From Salinisphaera orenii subsp. halophila YIM 95161 (GTDB lineage: Bacteria; Pseudomonadota; Gammaproteobacteria; Nevskiales; Salinisphaeraceae), in NCBI RefSeq assembly GCF_003732545.1, contig NZ_AYKF01000064.1, forward strand, positions 1 to 63,108: DNA of 63,108 nucleotides, given 5' to 3'. The position numbers and the translations under genes were made by a program. This document shows, in pieces, positions 46,852 to 55,171 of this stretch. Under the pieces are notes generated by a model. That model ran no database searches and was not told the DNA's origin. It saw only the letters and a program-made list of their open reading frames with translations. Numbering within the stretch: the first letter of the stretch is position 1; each line of letters starts with the position of its first letter.

Positions 46852-47607
46852 TCAGGTGAAGGCCTGCTCCAGTTCCAGATAGCCACCGCTTTCGTCGTGG
46901 ATGATCCGTCCCTGATCTCGGATTTCGGCAGAGATGTCCCGGAAATGCGGGCGGGCGGCCAGCGTGTCCAGCCAGCTTGCCACCCGCGGATAGCGGTTAA
47001 AGCGATAGCCCACGGCGACGATCTGGTACAGCTCGCAAGCGATCGTGAGATCGGCCAGGGTGGGCTGTTCGTGGCCGCAGAGCATGGCCGGCGCCTCCTG
47101 ACCCGTCGGCCGCGCGAGATGCGCCTCGAGCTGTGCCAGGCCGGCGTTCAGGCCGGCCTGAAGCGGGCGCAGCAGGGTGTCCTGGATTTCGTACTTGAGC
47201 ATCGGCAGCGTCCGATGCAGGTTCATGATGTGGTGGAACATGTCGTGGCGCCGCACGTTGTTGTGATGCCAGGCCATCCACTGATCGATGCGCGCAGCCC
47301 GCGCCGCGTCGTCTCGATCCGGGTACCAGTGCGGTGCCGCTTCCGAGGCCGCGGTTCGGCACAGATAGCGTATGATCGCGTGGCTCTCGGCGAGCATGAA
47401 CGCCCCTGATGCGCCGGCCGCGTCCGAAACCGCGAGTGCCGGCACCGTCTGCATCGGATTGATCTCACGAGCGAACCACGGCTGGCGGGTCTCGCCGCCG
47501 GCGAAATCGATCTCCTGCCAGTCATAGTCGACGCCGAGTTCGCGCAACAGGATCTCGACCGCACGGCAGGGCTGCGACAGGCGGTGGGCGTAAAGAGTCA
47601 GCGGCAT
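46852..47607 (-). CDS. Theta-like glutathione S-transferase
   Basis: This 251-residue protein begins LTLYAHRLSQPCRAVEILLR, with a Ser/Cys-containing active-site segment of the theta class, then NPMQTVPALAVSD (cis-Pro loop) and FMLAESHAIIRYLC (glutathione-binding Glu-Ser). The helical C-terminal domain (LCGHEQPTLADLTIACELYQ) completes the GST fold. Such enzymes conjugate glutathione to electrophiles or dehalogenate. No linked catabolic genes are seen. Confidence 0.9.
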   Translation of the reverse strand: MPLTLYAHRLSQPCRAVEILLRELGVDYDWQEIDFAGGETRQPWFAREINPMQTVPALAVSDAAGASGAFMLAESHAIIRYLCRTAASEAAPHWYPDRDDAARAARIDQWMAWHHNNVRRHDMFHHIMNLHRTLPMLKYEIQDTLLRPLQAGLNAGLAQLEAHLARPTGQEAPAMLCGHEQPTLADLTIACELYQIVAVGYRFNRYPRVASWLDTLAARPHFRDISAEIRDQGRIIHDESGGYLELEQAFT

Positions 47608-47980: not shown

Positions 47981-49249
47981 TTAGGTCAGGTATCGATACC
48001 ATAGTGAAAGCTGCGGGATGTAGGTGGTCAGCAGCAAACAGATCAGGCCCGCGGCGAGAAACCACAGCACTTCCTTGAGCAACGGCATCAACGGCAGCCG
48101 GTTGGTCAGGGCGGCGACATACAGATTGGCGGCCAGTGGCGGGGTCAGCAGGCCGATCTCGATGTTGACCACCACGATGATGCCGAAGTGGACCGGGTCG
48201 ATACCGTATTCGGCGGCCGCCGGCGCCAGCAGCGGGCCGAGTAGCAAGGTCGCCGCGCTCGTTTCCATGAACATGCCGACCAGCAGCAGCGTCAGGTTCA
48301 CCAGCAATAGAAACAGCAGCGTACTGTCGGTCAGCGACAGGGCGTATGCGGCGATCTGCTGCGGGATCTGTTCCAGAGTCAACGCTTGGTTGAAGATCGC
48401 GGTGAAGCCGATGACGAACATGATCGCCGCGGCGCTGGCCGCCGCCTGAGTGAAACCGGTCAGCGCGTCGGCGAACCTGGCCACCCGGCCGAGCAGCAGA
48501 TAGACGAACGCGTATATCGCGGCGACGGACGCGGCCTCGGTGGGTGTGAAGATGCCGGAGTAGATGCCGCCGAGCACGAGCAATGGCATCAGCAGTGCCG
48601 GTAGCGAGCTGGCTGCGCCGGCCAGCGAAATGCCGGTATGTGACTGATGGTCGGCCGCTGCTTCGCGGCCGTCCGTGATGACGGTGGCTGAACGCAGCGC
48701 GTGTACGCTCATGAACACGACGATGAACACGAAGCCCGGTACCAGCGTCGCCAGAAACAGTTGCGTGATCGAAACGCCGACGGCGGAGCCGTAGAGAATG
48801 AGCGGGATCGACGGCGGTAGAAGGACCCCGAGCAGCCCCGCGGAGGCGTTGAGCGCACCGACATAGCCCGGACGATACCCGGCCTCGAGCATGTCCGGGC
48901 CCATCGCGCGACCGATGGCGGCGACAGTGGCCACGGACGAGCCGGTGATCGCCCCCATGAGCGCGCTGGAGCCAATCATGATATGGCCGAGCGGAGCGCT
49001 GCTCCAGCCGAATATGCGCCGGCTGATACGTATCAGCCGCCGGGTGAGGCCGCCGCGATTCATCAGCTCGCCGCTGAGTATGAACAGCGGGATCGCCAGC
49101 AGCGGATAGTTCAGTAGCGTGTCGAGCGTCGTCTGGGCGACGTAGTCGAGATTGATGAACCAGTCGTCGGCTTCCAGCAGTATCGCCAGTGAAAAGGCGA
49201 TGCCGATGGGCGCGCCGAGTAGGAGCAGAACGGCGAGCAGAACGATCAT
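47981..49249 (-). CDS. dctM: TRAP transporter large permease (DctM type)
   Basis: This 422-residue inner-membrane protein has about 12 hydrophobic helices. Family motifs are IPLFILSGELMNRGG, GSSALMGAITGSSVATVAAI, GLLGVLLPPSIPLILYGS and TEAASVAAIYAFVY. DctM forms the transport pathway powered by ion gradients, together with DctQ. It overlaps dctQ by four bases (ATGA) and is the last gene of the operon. The second half contains NIEIGLLTPPLAANLYVA, another hallmark. Confidence 0.95.
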   Translation of the reverse strand: MIVLLAVLLLLGAPIGIAFSLAILLEADDWFINLDYVAQTTLDTLLNYPLLAIPLFILSGELMNRGGLTRRLIRISRRIFGWSSAPLGHIMIGSSALMGAITGSSVATVAAIGRAMGPDMLEAGYRPGYVGALNASAGLLGVLLPPSIPLILYGSAVGVSITQLFLATLVPGFVFIVVFMSVHALRSATVITDGREAAADHQSHTGISLAGAASSLPALLMPLLVLGGIYSGIFTPTEAASVAAIYAFVYLLLGRVARFADALTGFTQAAASAAAIMFVIGFTAIFNQALTLEQIPQQIAAYALSLTDSTLLFLLLVNLTLLLVGMFMETSAATLLLGPLLAPAAAEYGIDPVHFGIIVVVNIEIGLLTPPLAANLYVAALTNRLPLMPLLKEVLWFLAAGLICLLLTTYIPQLSLWYRYLT

Positions 49250-49779
49250 GGGTTGCGGGTCCGGTCGGGTACCGCCGCTTCGCCTGCCAGCATGGCGAGC
49301 ACGCGCATGACGGCATGAAACATCATCAGCGCCGTGCCCAGGGGAAAGCACAGTGCCAGCATCCAGAGCGGTGTGCCGAGGTCGAGCAGCTTGTCGCCGC
49401 TGGCGAGAAAATCCTCGACGAGATGAATGCCGCTTCGCATATACAGGTAGGCGAAGATCGTGGTCGCGATCGCGACGGCCACCTCGGCGAGCGTTCGCAC
49501 GGCTCGCCATGGTGCGTGGCGGACGAGGTCAATGGTCACGTGCGAACCAAGGCAGGTGCACAGGGCGCCCCCGACCAGAGTCAGGGGCACCATCGCGGCC
49601 AGCCCGAGTTCGCCGACGTTCGGCAGCGGTAGATCGAGATTGCGCACGGCGACCGTGACGGCGATCGAGATCGCCATCACGGCCAGCGACAACCCGCACA
49701 CGATCTTTTCCACGGCACAGATACCGCTCTCGATCTGCCGGAGTCCGCGAAGCCAGGGGGTCTGACTGAGAATGGCCAT
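49246..49779 (-). CDS. dctQ: TRAP transporter small permease (DctQ type)
   Basis: This 177-residue membrane protein has four hydrophobic helices, matching DctQ. Segments LSLAVMAISIAVTVAVRNLD, GELGLAAMVPLTLVGGALCT and LGSHVTIDLVRH are typical. It pairs with DctM; the start overlaps nothing upstream but its stop overlaps the dctM start. dctP lies 19 bases upstream. Confidence 0.9.
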   Translation of the reverse strand: MAILSQTPWLRGLRQIESGICAVEKIVCGLSLAVMAISIAVTVAVRNLDLPLPNVGELGLAAMVPLTLVGGALCTCLGSHVTIDLVRHAPWRAVRTLAEVAVAIATTIFAYLYMRSGIHLVEDFLASGDKLLDLGTPLWMLALCFPLGTALMMFHAVMRVLAMLAGEAAVPDRTRNP

Positions 49780-49798
49780 GGCCTGGGACCGTCGCCGA

Positions 49799-50800
49799 TC
49801 AGTCCGCCGTCATGACGTCGCGCAGCGCGTCGACGCGGTCCTGTCCGTAAACCGAGGTCAGCTCGCTCCAGACCTCGTCGGCCACCGCCCGGAAGCCTTC
49901 CTGCGCCTCGGCCGACGGCTCGATGACCTCCAGGCCGGCATCCTTGATCGCCTTGAGGGCTTTTTCGGCGTTCTCGCGATTGCGCTCGATCTGCCAGTCG
50001 CTGACCTCTTCGGCAATGTCGGTGAGCAGCTCGCGGTCCTTCTCGTCGAGACCTTCGAACGCGCGCTGGCTGGCTGTGATCGTCGACATGACGTAGGAAT
50101 GATGAGTCAGAGTCACGTACTTCTGGGCCTCGAAGAAGCGCGCCTGCTCGATGAGAATGACGCCGTTCTCCTGCCCGTCGACCGTGCCCTGCTGCAATGC
50201 GGTGAACAGCTCCGGGAAAGGCATGATCACGACCTGACTACCGGCCTTGTCGAAGAACAGCTTGAGCGACTGCGAAGGCACGACGCGCAGCTTCAGACCG
50301 TCGAGATCGTCGACCGTGCGAACGGGACGCTGCGAATTCGAGATGTCACGGAAGCCGTTCTCGAAATACGCCAGCGTTTTCATGTCGTGCTTTTCCAGCG
50401 TGCTGTCGAGCGTCTCGTGGATGATGTTGCGCTCACCGTAGAAGATGCGATCGACCGCTTCGTAGTCCGTCGCGATGTAGGGCAGGATGTGGAAATCGAA
50501 CAGCGGATCGATCCCGACCAGCGAGTTCGGGTTCAGGAAAGCGAGCTGGATCGTGCCGCGGGACAGCCCACGGCCGATCGCTTCGTCACCGCCGAGCTGG
50601 CCGGCGGGATAGACCTTGACGTCGATCCGGCCGTCCGAACGCTCGGCCGCGAGTTCGGCGAACATGTCAGCGGCTTCGCCCACCGAGCTCTGCTCGGGAA
50701 AGACGTGGGCCAGCCGCAGCCGGACGTCCTGGGCCATGCCTTGGATCGGCACGAGCATTAGGGCGGCCGCAGCCGCGATGATGGCAAGTTTGGTCTTCAT
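49799..50800 (-). CDS. dctP: TRAP transporter solute-binding protein (DctP type)
   Basis: This 333-residue periplasmic protein has a signal peptide MKTKLAIIAAAAALMLVPIQ ending GMAQ, then VRLRLAHVFPEQSSVGEAAD, the conserved carboxylate-binding region LDGLKLRVVPSQSLKLFFDK (Arg pairs with the substrate carboxylate) and FTALQQGTVDGQENGVI. It captures an organic acid and delivers it to DctQM. The ligase and ThDP enzyme upstream in the operon suggest the acid is then activated to a CoA thioester and cleaved. The ribosome site AGGAG lies close before the ATG. Confidence 0.94.
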   Translation of the reverse strand: MKTKLAIIAAAAALMLVPIQGMAQDVRLRLAHVFPEQSSVGEAADMFAELAAERSDGRIDVKVYPAGQLGGDEAIGRGLSRGTIQLAFLNPNSLVGIDPLFDFHILPYIATDYEAVDRIFYGERNIIHETLDSTLEKHDMKTLAYFENGFRDISNSQRPVRTVDDLDGLKLRVVPSQSLKLFFDKAGSQVVIMPFPELFTALQQGTVDGQENGVILIEQARFFEAQKYVTLTHHSYVMSTITASQRAFEGLDEKDRELLTDIAEEVSDWQIERNRENAEKALKAIKDAGLEVIEPSAEAQEGFRAVADEVWSELTSVYGQDRVDALRDVMTAD

Positions 50801-50862
50801 GGTGTCTCCTCCATTTCTATTTCTTGGATCACCGGCTGAGGTTCAGCCTACTCATCGGGGCG

Positions 50863-52587
50863 TCATGACAGCCCCAACCAGTTTCTTTCCGCCGCATCCC
50901 AGGCCTCCAGCGCCTGGTGATCGGGTACCCACGCCAGCCCCGACTTGCTGTCGGAGGACGGTGGCTCGGGCGAGGTGACGGCGTCGATGAGCACCGGCTC
51001 GCCGTCGGCCAGGGCCGCAAAGGCTTCGTCGAGTGCCGGTGCGATCTCCGCCGCCGTCTCCAGGCGCCAGGCCTTCATGCCGAAGGCGCGCGCCATCGCC
51101 GCATAATCGGCGTATTGCAGCTGCGTGCCCACCGCTCGGCCGAACCGGTCCATCTGGTCGCGCACCTCGATGGCCCACGATCCGTTGTTGCTGACGACGA
51201 TCATGCAGGCTGCCTTGTGCCGGACCGCGGTATCCAGCTCCATGGCGGTAAAGCCGAACGAGCCGTCTCCGGTGACGGCAACGACTTGCCGGCCGGGCGC
51301 CGCCTTGGCCGCGCCGATGGCGAAGGCGGGGCCGATACCGATGCAGCCCAGAGGCCCTGGGTCGAGATAGGTGCGGCCGTTGAGCGCCACGCGGGCGAAG
51401 CTCAGCGAATCGCCGCCGTCGGCAATGATCACGGCCTGGGGGTCGAGGCGTTTCTTCAATTCGGCGAGCAATCGATTCGGCGCCATGCGGCCCGCCGCGT
51501 CCGAAGGCGCGGACTCGAGCGTCTCGAGCAGGCCGGCGACGCGTTCGGCGTGCTTGCCGCGCAGCCCGGCCAGCCAGGCCTCGTCGCTCGGGTGGGGCTG
51601 CGCGTCGAGGCGCCGCGCCAGCTCGGCCAGTGTGAGTCCGAGGTCGCCGAGCAGCGACACGTCGCCGAGCCGGTTATCCGACAACTCGGCGGCGGTATCG
51701 GCGATACGCAGCAAGCTGGCCTGTCCGAAAACGGCGGGCGATCCGTAGGCGAGCTGGAAATCGAGCCGGCGGCCGACGGTGATGATCAGATCCGCCTGCT
51801 GCATGGCCGCGCCGCGCACCGCACCGATGTGGGCCGCATGGCTTTCGGGGACGATTCCCTTCGTCTCTCCGGTGTCCAGATAGCCGGCCCGGGCGGCGGT
51901 CAGAAAGGCGGCCAGTTCCCGGGGCGCCGTGTTGGCCCCGCGACCGCTGATGACCACGGGACGTTGGGCCTGGGCGATCAGCTTGACCGCCGCTGCGAGG
52001 TCGTCGTCGCCCGGGCGCGTCTTCGGGCGAGCGACGCCGGCGACGTGTTCGGTCGCGCACAGCGCCGCGGGTACCGTCTCGCGCTGGATGTCGACCGGCA
52101 GATCGATGAAGGCCGGGCCGGGCTCGTCGCCATGGCCGAGGGCGGCGGCGATGGCCGCGTCAAGTTCCCGGGCCACGGCATGGGCGTGACCGATGGTGTG
52201 CGCGTAGCGGGTGATCGAGCGCACTAGATCGATATGCGACATGTCCTGCAGTGCGCCGCGATTCTCCTGGGTGCGCGGGGGCAGCCCCGAAAGGATGAGC
52301 ACCGGGATGCGCGACTTGTGCGCGTTCGCGATCCCCGTCATCGCATTGGTCACCCCGGGGCCCGCGGTGACGAGCGCGACGCCGAGCCCGCCGCTCACGG
52401 CCGCCGACGCATGGGCCATGTAGACGGCCGAGCGTTCGTCGCGCACGTCGATGATCTCGATGCCGGCGTTCACGAGGGCCATCCATATCGGCATGATGTG
52501 GCCGCCGCACAGCGCGTAGACGCGCGTCGTGCCGCGGGCCTTGAGGCTCTTCGCGATCAGTGTTGCAGCGGTCAGCGCCTCGCTCAT
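50863..52587 (-). CDS. ThDP-dependent lyase/decarboxylase (2-hydroxyacyl-CoA lyase-like)
   Basis: This 574-residue enzyme has the three-domain fold of acetolactate-synthase relatives. The cofactor-activating Glu is Glu51 in DVRDERSAVYMA, and the Mg-ThDP motif is GDGSFGFTAMELDTA followed by NNGSW. The substrate is uncertain. The partner acyl-CoA ligase, with a four-base overlap, and the TRAP genes suggest cleavage of a 2-hydroxyacyl-CoA or decarboxylation of an oxalyl-CoA-like compound rather than acetolactate synthesis, since no small regulatory subunit is present. The end of the protein (KSGLAWVPDHQALEAWDAAE) is unusual relative to acetolactate synthases. Confidence 0.8.
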   Translation of the reverse strand: MSEALTAATLIAKSLKARGTTRVYALCGGHIMPIWMALVNAGIEIIDVRDERSAVYMAHASAAVSGGLGVALVTAGPGVTNAMTGIANAHKSRIPVLILSGLPPRTQENRGALQDMSHIDLVRSITRYAHTIGHAHAVARELDAAIAAALGHGDEPGPAFIDLPVDIQRETVPAALCATEHVAGVARPKTRPGDDDLAAAVKLIAQAQRPVVISGRGANTAPRELAAFLTAARAGYLDTGETKGIVPESHAAHIGAVRGAAMQQADLIITVGRRLDFQLAYGSPAVFGQASLLRIADTAAELSDNRLGDVSLLGDLGLTLAELARRLDAQPHPSDEAWLAGLRGKHAERVAGLLETLESAPSDAAGRMAPNRLLAELKKRLDPQAVIIADGGDSLSFARVALNGRTYLDPGPLGCIGIGPAFAIGAAKAAPGRQVVAVTGDGSFGFTAMELDTAVRHKAACMIVVSNNGSWAIEVRDQMDRFGRAVGTQLQYADYAAMARAFGMKAWRLETAAEIAPALDEAFAALADGEPVLIDAVTSPEPPSSDSKSGLAWVPDHQALEAWDAAERNWLGLS

Positions 52588-54188
52588 GACGTACCTCCCG
52601 GCCCGGAGCCGTCGGTGACGGTGGTTTGTGCCTCGGCGATGCGCTCCTTGAGGACGCGGTGCAGCAGCTTGCCGGTGGCGGTTCGGGGCATTTCGTCATC
52701 CGTCAGAAAGGTCACCGCCCGGGGGCGTTTGTAGCCGGCGAGCCGGCCGCGACAGGCTTCGATGAGCGTCTGGCTGTCCAGCGTCTGCCCGCGCTGCGGC
52801 ACGACCACGGCGTGTACGCGCTCGCCCCATTTGGCGTCGGGTACGCCGACTACAGCGACGTCCTTGACCCCGGGCAGGGCGCCGACGACGGCCTCCACTT
52901 CCGAGGGATAGATGTTCTCGCCCCCCGAGATGATCATGTTCTTCTTCCGGTCCACCAGCTGGATGAATCCGTTCTCGTCGCGTACGCCCATGTCGCCCAC
53001 CGAGCAATGATCGCCGTCGAAGGCCTCGCGCGTGAGCTCCGGCTGATTCCAGTAGCCGTCGAAGGTGTAGGGCGTCAGCGAGTACAGTTCCCCCGGCGTG
53101 CCGTCCGGTACTTCGTCGCCATGCTCATCGAGTAGGCGGATCGGACCGGAACCCACACACTCTCGACCGACCGTGCCGAGATGGCTGAACTGCTCGGCGG
53201 GGTGGAGCATCGTGACCCAGCCGGCCTCGCTCGACCCATACAGCTCGAACAGCCCCGAATTGGGAAACATCTCCATGATCTCTCGCTTGGTGTCGGCCCG
53301 CGCGGGGGCCGACGAAATCATCATCTTCTCCATGCGTCCCAGATCGCCGCCGGCGGGGCGCTCGGCCTGGGGCAGAGATAGCAGCATGATGAACTGGGTG
53401 GGCACGAGTGAGGTGAAGCTGCAGGGCAGGGCCTGCATGGTCTTCAACACGTGCGCGGGGTCGAAGCTACGGCGCGAGTAGATCGTGATCGCGCCGCCGC
53501 AGTAGACGAAGGCGCAGAAGAAGTTCAGGGAATTGGCGTGCGACATCGGCATGACCAGCAGGGCCTCGTCGCTGTCGTTCACGCTTAGTTCGATATCGGT
53601 GACGAGTGCGAGCATCGCCATGCCGTGGTGGCTGCGGATGACCCCCTTGGGATTTCCGGTCGTGCCCGAGGTGAACATGAGCGTCCACGGATCATCCGGC
53701 AGTACGACCACCGACGGGCGCGTTGCCCGTGCCGAGGCGATGATGGTCTCGTAGCCCGTCCAGCCACTCGGCGGTGCGTCGCTGCCGAACAGTATGAAGC
53801 GCGCCACGGGGATGTCGAGATCGGCGCGGATGGCCTCGACGTCTTCGTGCAACCCGTTCTGGACGATCAGCATCGTCGCCCCGGCACTCTCGATGATGTA
53901 TTGCATCTCCGTCGGTGCGAGACGGAAGTTGATCGGCACTACGATCACACCGCACTTTGCCGCAGCGATATAGATCTCGGCCCACTCGATGCAGTTGTAC
54001 GCCAGTACCGCGATGCGGTCGCCCTTGACGGCATCGAGGGCGCCGAGCGCATTCGCCAGACGGTTGGCCCGTACGTCCCATTCCCGGAACGTCAGGGCGC
54101 GATCGAGGTCCCGGACGGCCCGCTTGCCCGGATTCATGCGTGCCTGGCCTTCGACGATCTGCGCGAGATTCTGGATCGCTTGCCGCAT
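52584..54188 (-). CDS. Acyl-CoA synthetase (AMP-dependent ligase)
   Basis: This 534-residue enzyme activates an organic acid through an acyl-adenylate. Signatures are TLMFTSGTTGNPKGVIRSHH (AMP-binding loop), ELYGSSEAGWV, YDGYW-like TFDGYWNQPELT, DRKKNMIISGGENIYPSEVE and the catalytic Lys in PRTATGKLLHRVL. It is first in the operon with a perfect AGGAGT ribosome site four bases before the ATG. The protein appears selective for small or aromatic acids, but the pocket residues were not analysed. It likely supplies the CoA ester to the ThDP enzyme. Confidence 0.9.
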   Translation of the reverse strand: MRQAIQNLAQIVEGQARMNPGKRAVRDLDRALTFREWDVRANRLANALGALDAVKGDRIAVLAYNCIEWAEIYIAAAKCGVIVVPINFRLAPTEMQYIIESAGATMLIVQNGLHEDVEAIRADLDIPVARFILFGSDAPPSGWTGYETIIASARATRPSVVVLPDDPWTLMFTSGTTGNPKGVIRSHHGMAMLALVTDIELSVNDSDEALLVMPMSHANSLNFFCAFVYCGGAITIYSRRSFDPAHVLKTMQALPCSFTSLVPTQFIMLLSLPQAERPAGGDLGRMEKMMISSAPARADTKREIMEMFPNSGLFELYGSSEAGWVTMLHPAEQFSHLGTVGRECVGSGPIRLLDEHGDEVPDGTPGELYSLTPYTFDGYWNQPELTREAFDGDHCSVGDMGVRDENGFIQLVDRKKNMIISGGENIYPSEVEAVVGALPGVKDVAVVGVPDAKWGERVHAVVVPQRGQTLDSQTLIEACRGRLAGYKRPRAVTFLTDDEMPRTATGKLLHRVLKERIAEAQTTVTDGSGPGGTS

Positions 54189-54216
54189 GTGGACTCCTGA
54201 CTTATGCTTTTCATGC

Positions 54217-54232
54217 ACTCTGAATTCAGAGT
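54217..54232. promoter_or_regulatory. Perfect palindrome, candidate GntR/FadR operator
   Basis: ACTCTGAATTCAGAGT is a perfect 16-bp palindrome located 29 bases before the acyl-CoA ligase ATG and 199 bases before the GntR gene. FadR-type regulators bind short palindromes in the promoters they control, so this is a good operator candidate for the divergent operon. Confidence 0.6.
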
Positions 54233-54430
54233 TCGGAAGCGTCAAGTACGACCATCGTCGTGGTGTTGCTGCATCATGTAGCCGCGAAGCCGGGCCCTGA
54301 CGACGCGTTGCCGTGTCGAATGAAGTCGAGTGGACGATCGATTTCGGGCCGGTGATCACTGCGGCGTGCGCCGTGACACGACCGTTCGTGCAGCGCCACG
54401 TCGGTTCGTGAGCGGTGAGGTCGAAGCGGG

Positions 54431-55171
54431 ATGAAGGCTTATGAAGGAAGGATTCGGAGTAGCAAACTGATGCGCAAAGTGGCCAACGTGACGCGGCGGG
54501 TCGAGCAGGCCTACGAGATCATTCGCGACAGTATCTGCGACTGTACGCTCGAGCCGGGTACCCATCTCGTGCAGGAGGACCTCGCCGCGGACATCGGCGT
54601 CTCGCGCCAGCCCATCCAGCAGGCCATGCTGCTGCTCAAGGCCGATGGCCTCGTCATCGAAACCGGTGGTCGCGGGCTCTATGTCGCCCCCATGGACCCG
54701 GACAGCATCGTCTTCCATTATCAGATCCGAACCCAGATGGATCGTCTGGCAGCCTGTCTCGTGGCCCACCGGTCGGCCCACGCGGATGCATCGGCCTTCC
54801 GGCGCGATCTGGAGATCAACGGCCAGCGCCTGATCGATCAGGGGCGTCGAGCCAACCGTGAGGCAGGGGCGGCGGCTGCGGTCGCGCTCGATATGCAGTT
54901 TCACACGCTCATCTACGAGTATTCCGGTAACCCGCTGATCTCCACGGCGGCGGAGCCGCACTGGAATTTCCTGCGCCGCGTGATGATCAGTGTGCTGCTG
55001 CACGCCGGCCGCGGCGATACGGTCTGGGACGAGCACGAGCGGATTCTCCAGCAGTTGCTGGCCGGGCAGGCGTCGGTGGCCGATACCGTCGAGGCCCATA
55101 TCCTTGGCGCGCAGCGGGCACTGCTGGATATCCTGAACGGCGATGACCGGCTGACGACCCGTTCCAGTTGA
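54431..55171 (+). CDS. GntR-family regulator, FadR/FCD subgroup
   Basis: This 246-residue regulator has a winged helix near the N-terminus (EPGTHLVQEDLAADIGVSRQ) and a C-terminal FCD-type all-helical ligand domain (MQFHTLIYEYSGNPLISTAA, with metal-binding His pairs also in HLLG-type positions). It is divergent from the ligase/ThDP/TRAP operon and presumably represses it until the substrate or its CoA ester binds. The ATG at 54431 is listed; the ATG at 54470 (MRKVANVTRR) is an alternative with a weak ribosome site. Confidence 0.88.
   Translation: MKAYEGRIRSSKLMRKVANVTRRVEQAYEIIRDSICDCTLEPGTHLVQEDLAADIGVSRQPIQQAMLLLKADGLVIETGGRGLYVAPMDPDSIVFHYQIRTQMDRLAACLVAHRSAHADASAFRRDLEINGQRLIDQGRRANREAGAAAAVALDMQFHTLIYEYSGNPLISTAAEPHWNFLRRVMISVLLHAGRGDTVWDEHERILQQLLAGQASVADTVEAHILGAQRALLDILNGDDRLTTRSS

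Follow-up and report, generated by a model that had tools for sequence, protein, structure and literature searches.

An operon predicted to import, activate and cleave a short 2-hydroxy acid in Salinisphaera orenii, and its recurring candidate operator

Five genes and a divergent regulator

The window analysed here comprises 63,108 nucleotides of contig NZ_AYKF01000064.1 from Salinisphaera orenii subsp. halophila YIM 95161. Five minus-strand genes at 47981-54188 encode, in order of transcription, an AMP-forming acyl-coenzyme A (CoA) ligase, a thiamine diphosphate (ThDP)-dependent enzyme, and the solute receptor, small permease and large permease (dctP, dctQ and dctM) of a tripartite ATP-independent periplasmic (TRAP) transporter. 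A gene for a GntR/FCD regulator (54431-55171, plus strand; Pfam GntR 50 bits, FCD 52 bits), whose homologues adjoin the gene of the ThDP enzyme in relatives, diverges from this row. Reading frames and Pfam matches confirm the positions and names that a first-pass annotation had given to all of these genes. The tight packing it had described is likewise seen in the coordinates: the frames of ligase and ThDP enzyme share four bases (52584-52587), those of dctQ and dctM share another four (49246-49249, with the DctM start taken at 49249), and the gaps measure 19 bp between dctP and dctQ and 62 bp between the ThDP gene and dctP.

The ligase (52584-54188, minus strand, 534 amino acids; Pfam AMP-binding 258 bits, AMP-binding_C 72 bits) belongs to the large FadD-like group. 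Its start is placed at the ATG at 54188 rather than at the GTG at 54359, because the ligases of relatives begin there. Its identity to the ligases of the related loci L010 and L011 is 66%, and to that of a Cupriavidus plasmid 57%. The ThDP enzyme (50863-52587, minus strand) has 574 amino acids. The TRAP set is complete and of the DctP type, with dctP at 49799-50800 (Pfam DctP 256 bits; TIGR00787 205 bits, cut-off 175), dctQ at 49246-49779 (Pfam DctQ 56 bits, cut-off 28) and dctM at 47981-49249 (422 amino acids; Pfam DctM 322 bits and TIGR00786 343 bits, cut-off 268, scored on the longer frame 47981-49510), all on the minus strand and each above its Pfam cut-off. The predicted structure of DctP, built from a four-row alignment, reached a mean predicted local distance difference test (pLDDT) score of 46.8, and the model was not used. 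R172 of DctP lies in the motif LKLRV and is, as we assume, the conserved arginine of TRAP receptors. Receptors with this conserved arginine bind carboxylates (PMC4646407).

Relatives were chosen by the likeness of their lyase to the ThDP enzyme (the best 80 of 472), so that all counts below describe lyase-bearing loci only; L024, located on the same contig as L007, was dropped. The remaining 79 relatives and four plasmid loci form the 83 named loci in which gene company was counted under identity limits set in the script, and 49 of them exceed 18 kb in length. Two other loci repeat the order ligase-lyase-dctP-dctQ-dctM, one in an Alcaligenaceae strain (L011) and one in Paracoccus subflavus (L013), with identities to the window of 64-66% for the ligase, 68-71% for the lyase, 67-68% for dctP, 50% for dctQ and 66-69% for dctM. 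In Marinobacter aromaticivorans (L021), the same TRAP transporter (dctP 64%) is found about 3 kb from the ligase, together with a lyase from elsewhere in the tree; across the three loci, the receptors are 64-68% identical to DctP of the window. The recurring arrangement bears out the earlier proposal that the genes form an operon. A glutathione S-transferase-like gene (46852-47607, minus strand) follows on the same strand, 373 bp downstream of dctM; given this distance and the lack of a homologue at 1e-8 in the related loci, it was left out of the operon.

An active site shared with AcHACL

By curated model, active-site residues and nearest structures, the ThDP enzyme is a 2-hydroxyacyl-CoA lyase, as the first-pass annotation had suspected, and its sequence predicts cleavage to formyl-CoA. 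It passes the 2-hydroxyacyl-CoA lyase model NF058623 with 691 bits (cut-off 600) and lies away from the core of this family (1041 bits for the lyase of L009, 959 bits for that of the Cupriavidus plasmid). Its best solved structures are the entries of AcHACL, the lyase of Actinomycetospora chiangmaiensis DSM 45062 (PDB 7PT1), with E values of 4e-155 to 4e-154, and the next kind of enzyme follows at 6e-71.

We counted 11 AcHACL positions (H44, E65, T88, L127, Q128, R273, R362, R417, I492, E493 and D561) in an alignment of 96 rows that excludes L069, for its short frame, and L002, for its over-long one. All 11 are kept in the window lyase and in 83 of 83 rows of its clade. The full set is also present in two of the three AcHACL-like rows and in the row from Natrinema, and in none of eight other ThDP enzymes; the departing AcHACL-like row, L092, differs at H44 and I492. 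The window lyase thus retains the catalytic glutamate E493, which corresponds in the alignments to Glu474 (codon at 51166-51168, minus strand), the cofactor glutamate E65, the substrate glutamine Q128, H44 and T88, as well as the CoA contacts R273, R362, R417 and D561. Moreover, the size-limiting residues L127 and I492 are kept, and the C-terminal lid segment aligns with that of AcHACL. In AcHACL, E493 serves as the acid/base, and L127 and I492, together with the C-terminal lid, restrict acyl groups to C5 or less (PMC8760513, PMC13327070). Compared to AcHACL and its nearest kin, the window clade replaces Q41 by Cys (Ser in one row) and Q46 by Met.

In a tree of 42 rows, the window lyase falls into a seven-row group with L010-L015 (support 100/100); this tree contains no oxalyl-CoA decarboxylase and has very long outgroup branches, and only its inner lyase groups are used. 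Affiliation with acetolactate synthase or sulfoacetaldehyde acetyltransferase (Xsc), which the first-pass annotation had named as the outcome contrary to its reading, was not found. The best acetolactate synthase model gives 355 bits against a cut-off of 587, the Xsc models give 212 and 207 bits against cut-offs of 620 and 676, and the residues disagree with both identities as well.

A conserved palindrome specific to the lyase clusters

The promoter region shared by the ligase and regulator genes contains the perfect 16-bp palindrome ACTCTGAATTCAGAGT (54217-54232) that had been pointed out before, ending 29 bp from the ligase ATG. Its length is by itself no evidence, because the window holds 20 perfect palindromes of at least 14 bp, nine of them of at least 16 bp; conservation counts instead. 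We surveyed 83 loci, namely the window, L007-L009 and 79 of the 80 lyase relatives, for sites with at most two mismatches to AYTCTGAATTCAGART. Such a site lies near a lyase, ligase or GntR start in 62 of the 83 loci. The start zones, 117 kb in total, contain 70 sites versus 26 in the other 1284 kb, and shuffling all loci, in five rounds, yielded a mean of 0.4 sites per round. Within the same clusters, 24 of the 26 outside sites are located before or among genes for pyrroloquinoline quinone (PQQ)-dehydrogenase/Rieske, major facilitator superfamily (MFS), TRAP or acyl-CoA dehydrogenase proteins. One of the remaining sites precedes a GntR gene overlooked by the clustering (L030), and the other, with two mismatches, has no such neighbour (L031).

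At whole-genome scale, the window site is the only one with up to two mismatches in its own genome (3.79 Mb, 98.66% complete). When up to one mismatch is allowed, the genomes of 11 relatives contain 16 sites, all of them in lyase loci, compared to 0 in the reversed control; these genomes were selected because their lyase locus already showed a site, and the new information is that sites are absent elsewhere. The palindrome behaves as a conserved, cluster-specific operator, to which the GntR protein is predicted to bind. A scan for promoters and terminators returned one promoter-like and zero terminator-like sites, which is not above shuffled sequence. dctM itself contains a perfect 20-bp palindrome at 49020-49039.

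Gene company, substrate and known systems

Among the 83 named loci, the ligase is of the window type in 50, of a second type in 21 and HCL, the 2-hydroxyisobutyric acid (2-HIBA)-CoA ligase, in five, while seven have none; the window type and HCL occur together in 0 of 83. Importers comprise a second TRAP receptor type (seven loci; 27-29% identical to DctP of the window), an MFS carrier of one type (nine) and an auxin efflux carrier (AEC)-type protein (seven). Oxidative genes encode a PQQ alcohol dehydrogenase in 19 loci, AldA in eight and an acyl-CoA dehydrogenase in 15. By analogy with MpdBC of Actinomycetospora, the alcohol and aldehyde dehydrogenases would fit the expected oxidation of a diol to a 2-hydroxy acid (PMC7176365). 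A homologue of the mutase large subunit of Methylibium petroleiphilum PM1 is encoded in four loci: L042, L061, PM1 itself (L090) and the Natrinema plasmid L093 (52% identical). The HCL-bearing loci L034, L042 and L061 have no palindrome site near their lyase, ligase or GntR starts. L017, L042 and L063 come from metagenome bins labelled as Bordetella parapertussis or Klebsiella pneumoniae; their lyases group with those of environmental bacteria, and the species labels look doubtful.

The lyase-HCL cluster of A. chiangmaiensis (PMC7176365) shares with the window the lyase family, the catalytic residues and the lid, and in both a CoA ligase gene and a GntR regulator gene adjoin the lyase gene. 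In contrast, the window ligase is of another family, its operon lacks the MpdBC dehydrogenases, and a TRAP importer is present; the text of the Actinomycetospora paper (PMC7176365) makes no use of the word "transport". The mutase operon of PM1 likewise combines a lyase of the window clade (55% identical) with a CoA ligase and a GntR gene, but its ligase is HCL, it carries mutase, MeaB and adenosyltransferase genes, and no TRAP transporter is annotated in the stretch examined. On this plasmid (L090:11722-22254), the lyase gene lies inside the 2-hydroxyisobutyryl-CoA mutase operon and adjoins the adenosyltransferase gene. L042 and L061 are laid out similarly to PM1, and the Natrinema plasmid combines mutase genes with a more distant lyase and a ligase 45% identical to PM1 HCL. 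Cluster 2 of the isobutylene (ibc) genes of Mycolicibacterium sp. ELW1 (PMC13188929) resembles the window in its thiamine-dependent lyase, FadR/GntR regulator and carrier, and differs in its mutase pathway genes, its MFS-type carrier and its location on an actinobacterial plasmid.

An uncharacterised plasmid cluster of Azoarcus sp. KH32C (L091) has the lyase (57% identical), the ligase (53%), a GntR gene, a TRAP transporter with a receptor 29% identical to that of the window, and operator-like sites. It additionally encodes a PQQ alcohol dehydrogenase, AldA, a Rieske protein, an AEC carrier and a set of acyl-CoA dehydrogenase, short-chain dehydrogenase/reductase (SDR) and kinase, and a formate dehydrogenase operon adjoins it. 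At L091:16502-20559 and L021:12495-16558, genes for an acyl-CoA dehydrogenase, an SDR, a kinase-like protein, a DUF6285 protein and a histidine phosphatase adjoin the lyase gene. This gene set resembles the levulinate (Lva) enzymes, and the product of some clusters may be a 4-oxo or 4-hydroxy acid. A levulinate-type link via DUF6285-type genes (PMC11342911) was not used, the DUF6285 search of the window's own genome, run without a positive control, being empty. At L080:3712-14759, an AcHACL-like and a window-like lyase share one cluster; a ligase separates the two, and a TRAP transporter precedes them. In the open-licence literature, we found no paper on a 2-hydroxyacyl-CoA lyase with a TRAP transporter, or with Proteobacteria, operon and transporter, and only PMC7176365 on such a lyase with a gene cluster and GntR. 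The lyase is of a known kind, but this combination of genes, including a DNA switch and an importer of its own, appears to be undescribed.

At E 1e-120, the lyase is found in three of 85 genomes of the order (own genome included), in none of the 13 others of the genus and in two of 369 genomes drawn from the class (own included); DctP at 1e-90 is found in one of the 369, the own genome. The operon appears to be a rare and probably acquired trait; the base composition at 46-56 kb is similar to the surroundings and gives no sign of acquisition. The genome also encodes two formate dehydrogenases and four PQQ alcohol dehydrogenases above cut-off, the latter 36-39% identical to the enzyme of the Azoarcus cluster.

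We consider it likely that the operon is catabolic and serves the uptake, CoA activation and C1-C2 cleavage of a short 2-hydroxy acid, probably a tertiary acid of four to five carbons, since the lyase residues and the mutase company point that way. The TRAP transporter would import the acid, the ligase would convert it to its CoA ester using ATP, and the lyase would cleave the C1-C2 bond to yield a ketone (or aldehyde) and formyl-CoA, the formate from which could be oxidised by one of the two formate dehydrogenases. The GntR/FCD protein would bind the palindrome upstream of the ligase start and repress the operon, and the acid or its CoA ester would lift the repression. Gene content, the lyase family with its conserved active site, the conserved cluster-specific site and the recurrence of the operon are seen directly in the sequences; the direction of flux, the DctP ligand, the ligase substrate, repression and the inducer we infer. 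The first-pass reading is thus partly borne out, in the lyase, the recurring operon and the conserved palindrome, whereas its pairing of ligase and lyase for 2-hydroxyisobutyrate is not supported as worded.

Several observations weigh against the catabolic reading. Of the 83 surveyed loci, 21 have no site near the lyase, ligase or GntR starts, one of them being L013, with its best site ahead of PQQ-dehydrogenase genes. G009, G032 and G288, three genomes of the order or class that carry the lyase, contain no site anywhere. Same-genus genomes without the lyase (10 of 13 used) contain eight sites with one or two mismatches, spread over five of the ten, compared to 15 in the reversed control. Some CoA contacts of AcHACL are replaced in the window lyase, Q255 and S274 by Gly and K564 by Ser with an adjacent Lys. 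The ligase stays below every curated cut-off shown, and BLASTP at 1e-5 gives no match between it and HCL of PM1. Neither the mutase large subunit nor an acetone-carboxylase subunit turned up when the own genome was searched, and the DUF6285 search was likewise empty; all three were run without a positive control. Lastly, TRAP kin of about 50% identity on Ancylobacter and Skermanella plasmids adjoin other enzymes, without the lyase.

Plain 2-hydroxyisobutyrate is a possible but less favoured substrate, because the ligase type points away from it. The lyase shares family and size-limiting residues with AcHACL, and lyases of its clade adjoin mutase-type genes and HCL in L042, L061 and PM1, as does the more distant lyase in Natrinema. 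Yet the ligase that defines the published 2-hydroxyisobutyrate clusters and is paired there with the lyase is HCL (PMC7176365), and the operon's ligase, lacking a match to the PM1 enzyme, is not this ligase. Moreover, loci with the window-type ligase are without HCL (50 versus 5, overlap 0), and the own-genome searches for mutase and acetone carboxylase, with the limit given above, were empty.

That lyase and ligase act on a 2-hydroxy acid while the TRAP transporter is a mere neighbour importing another carboxylate is unlikely. The close lyase relatives L010, L012, L014 and L015 do without this transporter, and its kin on the Ancylobacter and Skermanella plasmids stand beside an aldehyde dehydrogenase, a Zn-dehydrogenase, a CoA transferase and a CoA-ester lyase. 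However, the identical five-gene order is found in two other genera, the same transporter accompanies a lyase placed elsewhere in the tree in Marinobacter, and a second TRAP type is joined to the lyase in seven of 83 loci. The Ancylobacter and Skermanella genes form operon-like rows (L096:6435-15055 and L097:6414-15041) of similar plan, in which a carboxylate-type importer is combined with CoA activation and another C-C lyase.

We regard it as very improbable that the lyase works as a carboligase that adds formyl-CoA to an aldehyde or ketone. AcHACL can catalyse its reaction in both directions (PMC8760513), and mutases beside the lyase in four loci could consume the product, but the operon includes a carboxylate-type importer and an ATP-using ligase, and the acid would therefore be the starting material. 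An oxalate route via oxalyl-CoA synthetase and oxalyl-CoA decarboxylase, the main alternative of the first-pass annotation, has in its favour the shared superfamily, the kind of gene pair and weak matches to the oxalyl-CoA decarboxylase models. It can nevertheless be practically dismissed, as these matches, at 245 and 222 bits, stay below the cut-offs of 557 and 739, and the lyase has Gln in place of the active-site Glu of that enzyme and Glu at the E493 position (PMC13327070).

Beyond the window, we tentatively propose that the proteobacterial lyase clusters may constitute one undescribed, modular catabolic system for a natural tertiary 2-hydroxy acid, held together by a shared lyase clade and a private GntR operator marking only these genes, with exchangeable importers, ligases and alcohol-oxidising modules; the S. 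orenii operon would be its compact form with a TRAP importer of its own. In the literature consulted, it is an actinobacterial enzyme that has been shown to cleave short branched hydroxy acids with release of formyl-CoA. If the catabolic reading holds, several groups of Proteobacteria would also cleave such acids, with dedicated importers, and the lyase clade would supply more enzymes for one-carbon carboligation. The cluster-marking site offers a simple means of listing a genome's pathway genes, and screening for inducers with the GntR protein could identify the natural acid.

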